Position numbers and translations under genes: made by a program. Under the pieces are notes generated by a model that was not told where the DNA came from, made no database searches, and saw nothing but the letters and a program-made list of their open reading frames with translations. A stretch of DNA of 64,000 nt, from positions 62,001 through 126,000 of the forward strand of contig NZ_FONY01000009.1 in NCBI RefSeq assembly GCF_900113045.1, read 5' to 3'. This DNA comes from Thermoflexibacter ruber. GTDB lineage: Bacteria; Bacteroidota; Bacteroidia; Cytophagales; Thermoflexibacteraceae. Below, in pieces: positions 23,285 through 27,538 of the stretch (positions are counted from its first letter, which is position 1; each line of letters begins with the position of its first letter).

Positions 23285-23343
23285 AATTCGTGTAATTCGT
23301 GGCTAAAAACTATTCATTCGTGCAAATTCGTGTAATTCGTGGC
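23285..23343 (+). repeat. Tandem copies of AATTCGTGTAATTCGTGGC
   Basis: Two identical 19-bp copies (23285-23303 and 23325-23343) flank a related ATTCGTGCA. Each copy is itself a doublet of AATTCGTG. The second copy runs into the coding sequence and provides the GTG start codon of the helicase. Similar ATTCGTG strings occur in the palindrome at 28587-28614. Confidence 0.85.
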
Positions 23344-26300
23344 AGACATACTCAAAACATACCAAAAACGCTTAACCAACCTCACCCACCGCAACAAATC
23401 CTTGTTGTTACTTTCCCTTTCCCAAAGAAATTTTTTAGACTTGCATCAGCTTGATTTTCTGAATAATAAGCCTTCTTTTACCATTATTGAAAACCTCATC
23501 AAAGGCATGAGTAAAACCCTGCTCTGCCCACAAGTCGACAGTAGGGATAAGTTTGCTAACCAAGTCAGCCCTATTTTAAAAAACATACAGCGCACTGACC
23601 GCTTTATTCAAGAGGAAAATGGGGCAAAAAACCTCTTTGTTGGCTACCCAATTGTGGAGGGGAAGTTACTAAACGACACCTTAATCCGTTGCCCCTTGCT
23701 TTTTTTCCCTGTTGAAATCACTTTGGAAAATAACCATTGGTATCTGAAACTGCGAGAAAATGAAAGCATGAGTTTTAACAAAACCTTCCTATTAGCTTAT
23801 AACTTTTTCAATAAAATTCAATTCAGCGAAGACTTTTTAGACCAAGATTTTGAAGACGAGCAGTGGACAAAAATCCGCAAAGACAGCCGACTCTTCCGAA
23901 CAGAACTTTACAAATACTTAGAAACAAACAACTTAGAAGTTCATTTTAATACCGAAAATTTTACAGATTCTCTGCACTATTTCACCAAGCAAAGCAAAAG
24001 CGAGTTTGACCTTTTCCACCAAACAGGCAAGCTAAAACTCCAACCCCAAGCTGTCTTGGGCATTTTCCCCCAAGCGGACTCTTACCTCGCTCCTGACTAT
24101 GATTTTTTGCTAAATACTCCAGAGGATTCTAAGTTTCTAACTCGGATTTTACCATTTTCTGCCCCACCCCTTAATCCCCTCCTCTATAGGGAAGGGGCAG
24201 GGGGGGGGCAGGGACAAGTTTACCCTTACCCCTTAGACGCTTCCCAAGAAAAAGCCTTGCAAGCGATTAAAAATGGGCAGTCTATTGTTGTTCAAGGTCC
24301 TCCCGGTACAGGCAAGTCGCAGTTAATCTGTAACTTAATCGCTGACAGCATCGCCAATGGGAAAACGGTTCTGGTCGTGTGCCAAAAAAAAGCTGCCTTA
24401 GACGTGGTTTATCAAAGACTTAGTGAAAAGCAAGTACAAAACTTTGCAGCCTTAGTACATGATTTTCAATACGATAGAAAAAATATTTATACCCAACTTA
24501 ACCAGCAAATAGAAAAAGTACATGAAAAAGCAGAGCAAAAAATCAGCTTAGAAGCACTGCACTACGAGGAGAAATTTATCCAACTTAATCGCCAAATAGA
24601 ACAGCATATCAGGCAGTTAGAGGGGTTTAAAACCGCTCTTTTTGATACTTCTGAATGTGGGCTTTCAGTTAAAGAATTGTATTTGACTTCTGATAAAAAT
24701 GCGCCACATATTTCCCTGACTAAAGTCGAGGACTTGGGTAAGGGGTTTAGATTTGATGACACTTACTATGATTTTATTCAAAAATTAGACCTCTATGAAA
24801 AATATACAGAAAAATTAGAAAAGCCTGATTATCAGTGGCTAAATAGACTTTCCTTTGCCAACCTCGAGGGAAAAGACTTAATGAAAATAAAGCAGGTAAT
24901 CAAAGAAATTGAAATTAGCATTCCCCCTCTCTCCTCTGGGGAGGGGAAAGGAGTGGCGCAAACTCCTCTATCGTTATCTGTATCTTCATTATCCCCCCCC
25001 AATCATGCTGAAATTTTTTGCAAGCAATGGAAAAACCTTTCCAAAGTGATAGAGCAATTAAAAAATCCCAATATTTTCAAGCTTTTCCAAGTCTGTTTAA
25101 AATATGACAAAAACAATTTGACTTGGCTCAATGAAATGGAAAAGAAAATGAGTCAAATGCTAAAAAAAAACACCTTAGAAATACATTTAGCTAATTCAGA
25201 GTTAAGCTTTTACAAAAAAGAATTAGAAAAATACCAGCAACTACAATCGTCTTTTTTCAAAAAATTGAAATATGTTTTTTCTAAGGAATACAAACTGTTA
25301 AAAACCTTAGCAAAAAAGAACAAACTAAAACTCAAAGGCAAGGGAACAGACACATTACTGCAAAAAATCAATAATCGTATTCATTTTGAGGAACTTAGAA
25401 ACGAGCTGATTGCTGGGGAAAGCACAATAGACGGCTCTTTGGAAGAATTAGAAAGCAGGGTATTGCTCAACGATTGGGTATTAGATATTCCTCAAAGCCT
25501 TGAAAAAGAGGATTTTAAACTGTGGTTTTCTAATTATAAAAAAGGAATTAAACTTTATGAACAAGCAAAAAAGATTTTGGATACGCTAAAAGTAAATCCA
25601 AATCATCAAAATACTCCATCAGAAAATGTTAATATTTTTGATATGTCATCTTTCATCAAAAATCTACTGCTTTCCGACGCGCAAACGCTTAATACAGAAA
25701 TCAAAAAATTTGCAGAAAGTTGTTTAGTCCTCTTTGAAAAATACAAATATTGGCAAAAATATTTGACAAAAAAACAAATTACTACTTTATGGGAAAAACC
25801 ATATTTGGCAGAAGAATGGGTGGCAGTTTTACAAGAAGATTTTGAATTGCTTTGCGAATTTGACCAGCTAAAAGCCTCAATGACGGAGCAACAGTTGAAG
25901 GTAATTGGAAAATTGAAAAAAATTATTGATGAAAATACTAAAAATAGTGAATCAAACCAACAAGCCCTCTCCTTGGGGGGGGGGCTATCAAAAATTCTCG
26001 ACAACAGTCTGCGCATCGCATGGATAGAACATATTGAAAAACAGCACCCTATCCTCAAATCTGTCAGTACTCCAAAATTTGGACAGATAGAAAAAAACTT
26101 GCAAAAGGCTATTGCAGAAAAAGAAAAAATCAGCGAACAAATCTTATTGGTCAGGGTTCATGAATCAGCTTGTAAAGAATTGGAATACAATCGTTTGAGA
26201 AACCTAACTTCGTATCGAGAACTCAAACACCAAGTCAGCAAGAAACGCCATGTTTGGGCTTTGAGGAAACTCATTGCTCATTTCAAAGAGGAAATTTTTA

Positions 26301-27538
26301 AGCTGATTCCTTGCTGGCTTTGCTCACCCGAAACCGTTTCTGCTATTTTCTCTATGGATGCCCAACTCTTTGATTTAGTTATATTTGATGAGGCTTCTCA
26401 GTGTTTTGCTGAGAAAGGAATCCCTGCCATGTATCGGGGAAAGCAAGTGGTGATAGTGGGAGATGATAAGCAGTTAGCCCCTAATGACCTCTACCAAATC
26501 CGTTGGGAAGAAGACCCTGACTCAGACGATAATAATGTGGCTTTGGAAACTGAATCTCTCTTAGATTTAGGCAAGCAATACTTCCCAATTACCTCGCTTA
26601 TAGGACATTACCGAAGCAAATCTTTGGATTTGATAGATTTTTCTAATCAGTATTTTTACAATAACAAGTTAAAATTATTACCAGATTACCATGAATTTAT
26701 CAAAGGTGAACCCTCCATTACTTACCTCAAAGTGGAGGGGCTTTGGGAGAAAAATACCAATTTGATAGAAGCCCAAGAGGTGGTGAAAATCATTAAACAA
26801 TTCTTGGAAAAAGACAAAAATGACATTGGGGTTATTACTTTTAACTACAAGCAACAACTTCTAATTCAAGACCTATTAGAAGAAGAAAAAATCGCTTTGC
26901 CTCCTTCTCTTTTTATCAAAAACATTGAAAATGTGCAAGGTGATGAAAGGGACATCATTATTTTCTCCACGACTTATGCTCCCAATAGTAGAGGTCAGTT
27001 GCGAATGCAGTTTGGTAGTCTGAACTTAGTAGGTGGAGAAAACCGCATGAACGTAGCAGTTACAAGAGCAAGGGAGAAAATAGTAGTAGTAAGTAGCATT
27101 TTTCCGCACCAGCTCAACGTAGAAGACCTTACAAACGAAGGGGCAAAAGTGCTGAAAAAATATTTAGAATATGCCTTAGAGGTATCACAGGGCAAGTACA
27201 AACCCACTTTACCGACCAAACCCAAGCAAAATTTAGATTGGTTTTTAAAGGAAAAAATCAAGTTATTTGTGAGTACACAAACAACAACAGTGAGGTCAAG
27301 CCAAACTTTGGAGATTTCTGAGCAAATTCCTTTTGCAGATTTGGCAATAAAAACTTTGCCTAAGCTAAAACTTATCTTAACCGATGACAACTTGTACTAC
27401 GAAGCACTTTCCATCAAAGAAAGTCATGTTTATCTGCCAAGATTATTTCAAAAAAAAGGCTGGGATTTTGAGCAGGTGTATAGCAGAAATTGGTGGAATA
27501 ATCGTGAGTCTATTTTGCAAGAGTTCCTACTGTTATAA
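23339..27538 (+). CDS. Large SF1 helicase with DUF4011-type N-terminus and nuclease-like C-terminus
   Basis: A 1399-residue helicase of the DNA2/UPF1-like SF1 branch. The N-terminal 250 residues (ILKTYQKRLTNLTHRNKSLLLLSL, LIRCPLLFFPVEI) match the DUF4011 type. Motif I is VVQGPPGTGKSQ (about residue 320), motif II FDEASQCF (about 1017), motif III VGDDKQLAP, and motifs V/VI VQGDERDIIIFSTTYAP and NRMNVAVTRARE. Motifs I and II are split by a long coiled-coil-rich insert (about 390-960). The last 60 residues (LTDDNLYYEA, GWDFEQVYSRNWW) resemble the end of the MTES_1575/Vsr-like endonuclease domain. The start is GTG inside a repeat; an in-frame TAA lies two codons upstream, so no upstream start exists. 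Three GC-rich insertions with G9, C8 and G10 tracts interrupt the frame-neutral coding sequence. The role is unknown; relatives occur in defence and repair contexts. Confidence 0.88.
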   Translation: MADILKTYQKRLTNLTHRNKSLLLLSLSQRNFLDLHQLDFLNNKPSFTIIENLIKGMSKTLLCPQVDSRDKFANQVSPILKNIQRTDRFIQEENGAKNLFVGYPIVEGKLLNDTLIRCPLLFFPVEITLENNHWYLKLRENESMSFNKTFLLAYNFFNKIQFSEDFLDQDFEDEQWTKIRKDSRLFRTELYKYLETNNLEVHFNTENFTDSLHYFTKQSKSEFDLFHQTGKLKLQPQAVLGIFPQADSYLAPDYDFLLNTPEDSKFLTRILPFSAPPLNPLLYREGAGGGQGQVYPYPLDASQEKALQAIKNGQSIVVQGPPGTGKSQLICNLIADSIANGKTVLVVCQKKAALDVVYQRLSEKQVQNFAALVHDFQYDRKNIYTQLNQQIEKVHEKAEQKISLEALHYEEKFIQLNRQIEQHIRQLEGFKTALFDTSECGLSVKELYLTSDKNAPHISLTKVEDLGKGFRFDDTYYDFIQKLDLYEKYTEKLEKPDYQWLNRLSFANLEGKDLMKIKQVIKEIEISIPPLSSGEGKGVAQTPLSLSVSSLSPPNHAEIFCKQWKNLSKVIEQLKNPNIFKLFQVCLKYDKNNLTWLNEMEKKMSQMLKKNTLEIHLANSELSFYKKELEKYQQLQSSFFKKLKYVFSKEYKLLKTLAKKNKLKLKGKGTDTLLQKINNRIHFEELRNELIAGESTIDGSLEELESRVLLNDWVLDIPQSLEKEDFKLWFSNYKKGIKLYEQAKKILDTLKVNPNHQNTPSENVNIFDMSSFIKNLLLSDAQTLNTEIKKFAESCLVLFEKYKYWQKYLTKKQITTLWEKPYLAEEWVAVLQEDFELLCEFDQLKASMTEQQLKVIGKLKKIIDENTKNSESNQQALSLGGGLSKILDNSLRIAWIEHIEKQHPILKSVSTPKFGQIEKNLQKAIAEKEKISEQILLVRVHESACKELEYNRLRNLTSYRELKHQVSKKRHVWALRKLIAHFKEEIFKLIPCWLCSPETVSAIFSMDAQLFDLVIFDEASQCFAEKGIPAMYRGKQVVIVGDDKQLAPNDLYQIRWEEDPDSDDNNVALETESLLDLGKQYFPITSLIGHYRSKSLDLIDFSNQYFYNNKLKLLPDYHEFIKGEPSITYLKVEGLWEKNTNLIEAQEVVKIIKQFLEKDKNDIGVITFNYKQQLLIQDLLEEEKIALPPSLFIKNIENVQGDERDIIIFSTTYAPNSRGQLRMQFGSLNLVGGENRMNVAVTRAREKIVVVSSIFPHQLNVEDLTNEGAKVLKKYLEYALEVSQGKYKPTLPTKPKQNLDWFLKEKIKLFVSTQTTTVRSSQTLEISEQIPFADLAIKTLPKLKLILTDDNLYYEALSIKESHVYLPRLFQKKGWDFEQVYSRNWWNNRESILQEFLLL
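24161..24213 (+). repeat. GC-rich insertion 1 in the helicase gene, with G9 tract
   Basis: A GC-rich palindrome-like segment (CCCCACCCC, CCCCTCCTC, then AAGGGGCAG and a run of nine G) lies in frame in an AT-rich gene and encodes the odd peptide APPLNPLLYREGAGGGQG. It sits just before the motif I region (QVYPYPLDASQ). Confidence 0.75.
24921..25000 (+). repeat. GC-rich insertion 2 in the helicase gene, with C8 tract
   Basis: CCCCCTCTCTCC and GGGGAGGGGAAAGG form a stem-like palindrome (24922-24957). A run of eight C follows at 24993-25000. The encoded peptide includes IPPLSSGEGKGVAQ and SPPN. The frame stays open. Confidence 0.65.
25964..25985 (+). repeat. GC-rich insertion 3 in the helicase gene, with G10 tract
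   Basis: CCCTCTCCTT is followed by ten consecutive G (25975-25984). It encodes ALSLGGGL within a coiled-coil-rich segment. The CCCTCTCC opening resembles that of insertion 2. Confidence 0.65.

Follow-up and report, generated by a model that had tools for sequence, protein, structure and literature searches.

The PIT/TM_ECO intrastrand triplex motifs consist of a C-rich arm, a loop, a G-rich arm, a short spacer and a second G-rich arm, are dispersed, differ widely in copy number among close relatives, form inverted pairs and are reported to be always intergenic in E. coli MG1655; the sections of their description that were consulted name no mobilising enzyme (PMC4666352, 2015). In Enterobacter sp. 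638, about one hundred copies of the repeat CCCTCTCCCXX(X)GGGAGAGGG, often in twos or threes, lie at gene 3' ends, where they are presumed to act as terminators (PMC2869309). Rickettsia palindromic elements (RPE), which are 105-146 bp long and have terminal inverted repeats, are present in frame in conserved protein genes (PMC2229807, PMC3733652). GTAG/CGTC REPs, which go with RAYT transposases, are small hairpins that occur as singles and inverted doublets; some of them lie in frame in repair genes, and some uvrA and uvrB genes have two insertions (PMC3733652). ShiLan-type elements bear an endonuclease and leave the host frame open with no recognisable intein or intron, their HNH nuclease being out of frame in phage methylases (PMC11855218). 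DUF559 is a Vsr-like family (PMC12907096).

The window, which is the whole stretch of DNA that was analysed (64 kb), is part of contig 97 in a 5.5-Mb draft genome of 123 contigs and contains a helicase gene with three palindromic inserts (Table 1). All three belong, in decayed form, to a palindrome family that is dispersed in the genome and has copies in frame in the linkers of many conserved proteins. DUF559 genes in the order are flanked by inverted palindromes, and many of these genes lie in frame inside LeuRS, MetH, MutS and methylases. From these sequence comparisons, the three inserts are probably (at roughly 0.7) non-autonomous remnants of a mobile element that encodes a DUF559 endonuclease.

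Table 1. Positions of the helicase gene, its inserts and tracts (window coordinates) and of intergenic elements elsewhere in the genome (contig coordinates).
Feature	Position	Strand	Details
Host gene, superfamily 1 helicase with DUF4011 region	23339..27538	+	1399 aa; AAA_11 at residues 299-428, AAA_12 at 1083-1253
Insert 1	24162..24209	+	model match G000:C97:86173-86207
Insert 1, outer C-rich arm	24162-24170		
Insert 1, inner C-rich arm	24176-24184		
Insert 1, loop	24185-24188		
Insert 1, G-rich arm	24189-24197		
Insert 1, spacer			CA
Insert 1, third arm	24200-24208		G9 tract
Insert 2	24923..24956	+	model match C97:86922-86956
Insert 2, hairpin	24923-24946		CCCCCTCTCTCCTCTGGGGAGGGG
Insert 2, third arm	24950-24956		GGAGTGG, decayed
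C8 tract	24993..25000	+	outside insert 2 palindrome
Insert 3	25964..25985	+	GCCCTCTCC, TT, G10 (25975-25984), C; model match C97:87960-87987
Intergenic element, L132	C47:16923		
Intergenic element, L134	C28:8002		
Intergenic element, L139	C67:52792		
Intergenic element, L143	C67:12333		

The helicase frame is open over its full length and matches AAA_11, AAA_12 and DUF4011, and the inserts are in frame, as the earlier note had read them. Two copies of AATTCGTGTAATTCGTGG are located directly 5' of the gene (window 23286-23342), and the second provides the listed GTG start codon of the frame. The best named relative of the helicase is encoded in a Cytophagales metagenome bin (L092) and has 65% identity in the best segment, so that the window probably comes from a Cytophagales bacterium. 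The genes next to the helicase in the window look metabolic, as read from their sequences, and none of three flanking genes tested adjoins the helicase in the loci of 13 relatives. Most of these loci reach only about 1.5 kb per side, so that gene context says little; a defence-island setting was rejected on these two observations, within that reach.

The tracts of nine G, eight C and ten G lie exactly where they had been reported and are the sole G or C runs of at least eight bases in the window, in which the next longest is C7 at 41059. The whole draft genome has 41 distinct tracts of this length, and three of them would fall within 1.8 kb by chance with a probability of about 4e-7, for a span that was picked after being seen. 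None of 16 other tracts checked by eye is within a palindrome of the insert family. The claim that the inserts end in the tracts fails for C8, which begins 46 nt past the end of palindrome 2 (24946) and is no part of it. That no similar insert is present elsewhere in the window was borne out, as the palindrome model matches only the three helicase places there, with 150 of 1363 candidates scored. The longest G tracts of the genome, G14 and G13, are found in short open frames at G000:C50:42456-42469 and C50:44574-44586 (L012, L019), on near-identical sequences 2.1 kb apart, and are better slippage candidates than the helicase tracts.

The fullest form of the family is CCCCTCTCC-TTT-GGGGAGGGG-CA-GGGGTGGGG, in which a short loop joins a C-rich to a G-rich arm and another G-rich arm comes after them, frequently with a C-rich outer arm, and the element measures about 23-50 bp. 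Insert 3 is a single, decayed hairpin. A genome-wide search, which the earlier note had proposed for a dispersed element, recovered such a family, with in-frame copies in other conserved genes. The pattern CCCTCTCC followed by GGGG within 20 bases has 48 matches on both strands, against 8 for the reversed control. The palindrome model has 35 positions and was built from 19 copies, of which 15 are from the same genome and match it by construction. It has at least 72 matches at E<=10 in this genome, a lower bound because only 150 of the 1363 first-look candidates were scored. With the strands merged these correspond to 49 places, of which 45 were examined and four weak ones (E 7.9-8.5) left out. 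Among the 35 places listed at E<=1, 15 are in frame within 12 open frames longer than 450 aa, 12 are copies of an intergenic form that has terminal repeats of its own and 8 are outside long frames. The intergenic element is about 75 bp long and has TTCTTGCGAAAG / CTTTCGCAAGAA terminal repeats that enclose the same C-rich hairpin.

MetH and SMC are among the in-frame hosts of the palindrome. Others, identified from their sequences alone, are an FAD-linked oxidase, a UvrD-type helicase, an RND transporter and DNA methylases; CysN and Cas1 have copies that are weaker or were found by pattern. In the alignment of MetH with PDB 4ccz, both sides of the element match, and the element itself forms an extra loop of 26 residues. 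CysN has about 10 extra residues relative to 1zun_B where its element sits, and the alignment of Cas1 to a structure stops at its element. The hinge region of SMC (L213, L214, L215) has palindromic inserts in the window's genome (G000), G002 and G005 and none in G008 and G009.

The family has the arm order, dispersal, uneven copy number among close relatives and inverted pairs of PIT/TM_ECO, and differs from these motifs, intergenic in MG1655, in having 15 of its 35 copies at E<=1 within genes and in frame (PMC4666352). When one mismatch at most is allowed, the class II triplet rule gives 13 matches in 11 of 25 own-genome loci for stems of at least 7 and 9 matches in 8 of 25 for stems of at least 8, in loci that had been chosen for the palindrome, and zero matches in six Markov controls with either stem. 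The three window copies fail the rule with one mismatch because they are decayed. The Enterobacter repeat has a near-identical core hairpin, and its position at the 3' ends of genes differs from that of the in-frame copies described here (PMC2869309). RPE resemble the family, by description, in being in-frame palindromes, and are longer. The REP/RAYT system shares small hairpins, singles and inverted doublets with the family (PMC3733652). Unlike its members, the 19 aligned copies have no conserved GTAG or CGTC tag on inspection, and the gene that neighbours the hairpins is DUF559 and not Y1.

Matches to the helicase at E<=1e-30 are found in 42 of 59 genomes, its own included. The alignment comprises 29 frames, also with its own, several of them partial, and loci L078 and L083 were left out. 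Relatives either have no inserts at the window's sites or have their own in the same linkers, in agreement with the insertion reading of the earlier note. The helicase of G002 carries an element at site 1 in the reading frame of the window gene; its third arm is GGGGTGGGG, which differs in one base from the G9 of the window gene. The shared insert is inherited, and the G9 tract arose by change of the interrupting base in the G-rich element arm. The G10 tract of insert 3, which stands where the family has TTTGGGGAGGGG, looks the same in origin, and the same element arm in the SMC gene has likewise turned into a run of nine bases. The helicases of G001 and L092 are insert-free and do not differ from each other over the stretches compared. 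In G009, sites 1 and 3 are both occupied, site 1 by a doublet; these are its own insertions, as their reading frames differ from those of the window gene. G003 has one element close to site 2, and in G005 (L084) the linker of site 3 contains a different palindrome, ACTTTCCAAGTCTAAAAGACTTGGAAAGT, in three tandem in-frame copies. No insert is present in the aligned parts of the remaining 22 of the 29 helicases. The relatives have filled the same linkers independently.

DUF559 (PF04480) has 36 matches in 22 of the 59 genomes, and none is detectable in the window's own genome. The flanks of 30 of the 36 loci were surveyed for a hairpin with a C-rich pyrimidine arm and a stem of at least 7 within 200 bp, which 13 loci have on both sides and 21 on one side or both. 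Among 2200 random windows in 55 other loci, none has it on both sides and 26 on at least one side; the counts are 9 and 93 for 1553 overlapping windows taken from other parts of these 30 loci. The two flanks of single DUF559 genes have exact inverted matches of up to 42 nt. The strict hairpin is absent at 9 of the 30 loci, including the in-frame ones of G030 (L252) and G015 (L258). An open frame longer than 250 aa is present at 16 of the 30, with DUF559 at one end in two (L231, L252), and at least three of these 16 have no strict hairpin (L252, L257, L258). The match of L258 is a diverged DUF559 in an apparent LeuRS frame and is perhaps an old, settled insertion. In ten genes scanned with Pfam, DUF559 is placed amid the host domains of LeuRS (four), MetH (two), MutS (one) and restriction-type methylases (three), and no intein domain is among their Pfam matches. 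The DUF559 unit resembles ShiLan-type elements in bearing an endonuclease in an open host frame, and differs from them in being in the frame of its host, bounded by palindromes and in bacterial housekeeping genes (PMC11855218). The open literature searched, in which work under other names could be missed, contains no report that links DUF559 with such palindromes.

Two genes present the same site in several states. The MetH loop has two palindromes in the window's genome and in G001, a doublet in G009, an unrelated repeat in G002 and, in G005, some 600 bases inserted in frame, in which a nuclease-like domain, DUF559 according to Pfam, lies between inverted palindromes; in G003 and G007 the parts that flank the loop are contiguous. 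In LeuRS, the site in the editing region directly before LTVFTTRIDT is empty in the window's genome. It is occupied by a palindrome with a shorter hairpin alongside in G009, by two palindromes around a short spacer in G005 and, in G035, where LeuRS continues on either side, by DUF559 between palindromes. G002, which is of the same genus as the window's genome and 92% identical over the matched part, has DUF559 with a palindrome at the right junction, and its contig ends inside the element on the left. G031 and G046 have DUF559 at another LeuRS site. The LeuRS series is the best argument for regarding palindromes and DUF559 units as states of one element; it is compatible with either of them having come first. 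Neither movement nor a target duplication was seen; for the latter, the helicase linkers are too diverged, and the LeuRS site of G002 offers the right junction only.

The strict palindrome is present in 18 of the 59 genomes, with 1 to 151 copies each, and the reversed control has one match in all 59. In G009, 39 of the 151 copies were examined, and 9 are inside open frames of at least 250 aa. DUF559 is found in 12 of the 18 palindrome-bearing genomes and in 10 of the 41 others (p=0.003, by counts that ignore phylogeny), a moderate co-occurrence. Y1 transposases are found in 16 of the 18 and 22 of the 41 (p=0.016, also ignoring phylogeny). RAYT/Y1 was rejected as the driver: it co-occurs by genome, yet no such hairpins lie beside the six Y1 genes that were inspected in genomes with the element, two of them from the window's own genome. 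Among the ten best Y1 loci, one has a hairpin on one side.

Beyond the order, 12 of 48 named plasmid-collection records, which were picked for taxonomic spread, were examined with a stem of at least 6 within 250 bp. DUF559 has a C-rich hairpin on one side or both in 8 of the 12 and on both in 5, these being two from Pseudanabaena, two from Deinococcus and one from Sphingomonas. The DUF559 flanks of Deinococcus psychrotolerans have exact inverted matches of up to 45 nt. By the same rule, Picosynechococcus, Azospirillum, Geobacillus and E. coli KE47 have no hairpin. In E. coli MG1655, DUF559 is represented by ycjD (167 bits), and TM_ECO copy no. 9 of the published set is located 167 bp after this gene, a nearness with an estimated chance of about 0.4% for 23 copies in 4.6 Mb. 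The E. coli control genome has no PF04480 match, and some E. coli do not have ycjD at the MG1655 locus. In two regions of the latter kind (L272, L273), an efflux cluster adjoins sapF directly, where MG1655 has ycjD and fabI, so neither of them provides a clean empty ycjD site.

The palindromes would be the ends of the DUF559 mobile element, whose nuclease would cut or nick a target into which the unit is copied. Palindromes that stand singly or in pairs would be forms that are non-autonomous or have undergone deletion, much like REPINs or MITEs, and copies in frame in linkers would survive selection because most frames through the element ends are free of stop codons. The helicase inserts would be remnants of this kind and have no regulatory role. 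It is also possible, and rather unlikely, that the palindromes were dispersed in some other way, for instance by recombination or by a transposase since lost, and that DUF559 is a homing-type passenger that invades palindrome pairs. Such a passenger is consistent with the presence of palindromes and the absence of DUF559 in the window's genome and in six of the 18 palindrome-bearing genomes, as well as with doublets that have no DUF559. The inverted ends of single genes, which match over as much as 42 nt, and 45 nt in Deinococcus, argue against it, since matching flanks of one gene are expected for the ends of one unit.

The other reading of the earlier note takes the tracts for a slippage switch in a gene of possible defence function; such a switch would turn the helicase on and off. 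In its favour are three tracts of 8-10 bases in one gene, any of which can break the frame by a one-base change, and a distant similarity to the defence helicases PDC-S37, Hhe and ProA. The helicase is a distant relative of defence helicases; its scores are 461 bits with PDC-S37, 221 with Hhe and 120 with MkoA in PADLOC, and 518 with ProA and 332 with Hhe in NCBIfam; these last two are far below the curated cut-offs for the anti-phage families, 1500 and 2000 bits. None of the 28 other helicase frames has a G or C run of at least eight bases. The tracts need no switch, since G9 is an inherited arm with one base changed and the arm of SMC, a housekeeping gene, changed likewise, and we consider the switch, which found no support, highly improbable. 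Slightly less probable still is that the inserts were retained as peptides with a function in the helicase, for example as a regulatory or binding loop. Their position in frame in linkers, and the filling of the same linkers in several lineages, are in its favour; against it, the copies of the family are translated in several frames and in both orientations, so that no encoded peptide is conserved, and the helicases of G001, L092 and the 22 others mentioned above do without inserts in the aligned parts.

Remnants of a DUF559 element are the preferred reading of the three inserts. With about even odds, DUF559 elements with inverted triplex-type ends form a widespread mobile class that is present in frame and without splicing in essential genes (LeuRS, MetH, MutS), the GC-rich palindromes of these Bacteroidota are its non-autonomous copies, and the same system includes the PIT/TM_ECO repeats of E. 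coli, where ycjD is the DUF559 relative, and similar cyanobacterial, Deinococcus and Sphingomonas repeats. Hundreds of genomes are known to contain GC-rich palindromes of this type from published catalogues, and the literature found gives no means by which they spread. A concrete candidate for that role is an enzyme whose gene lies, in several phyla, between matched inverted copies, and the question is testable in laboratory E. coli. If true, an endonuclease element would enter essential genes in frame with neither an intein nor an intron. In the window, what was suspected to be a switch becomes the decay of an old insertion, and G-tracts in such genes should not be taken for phase variation.
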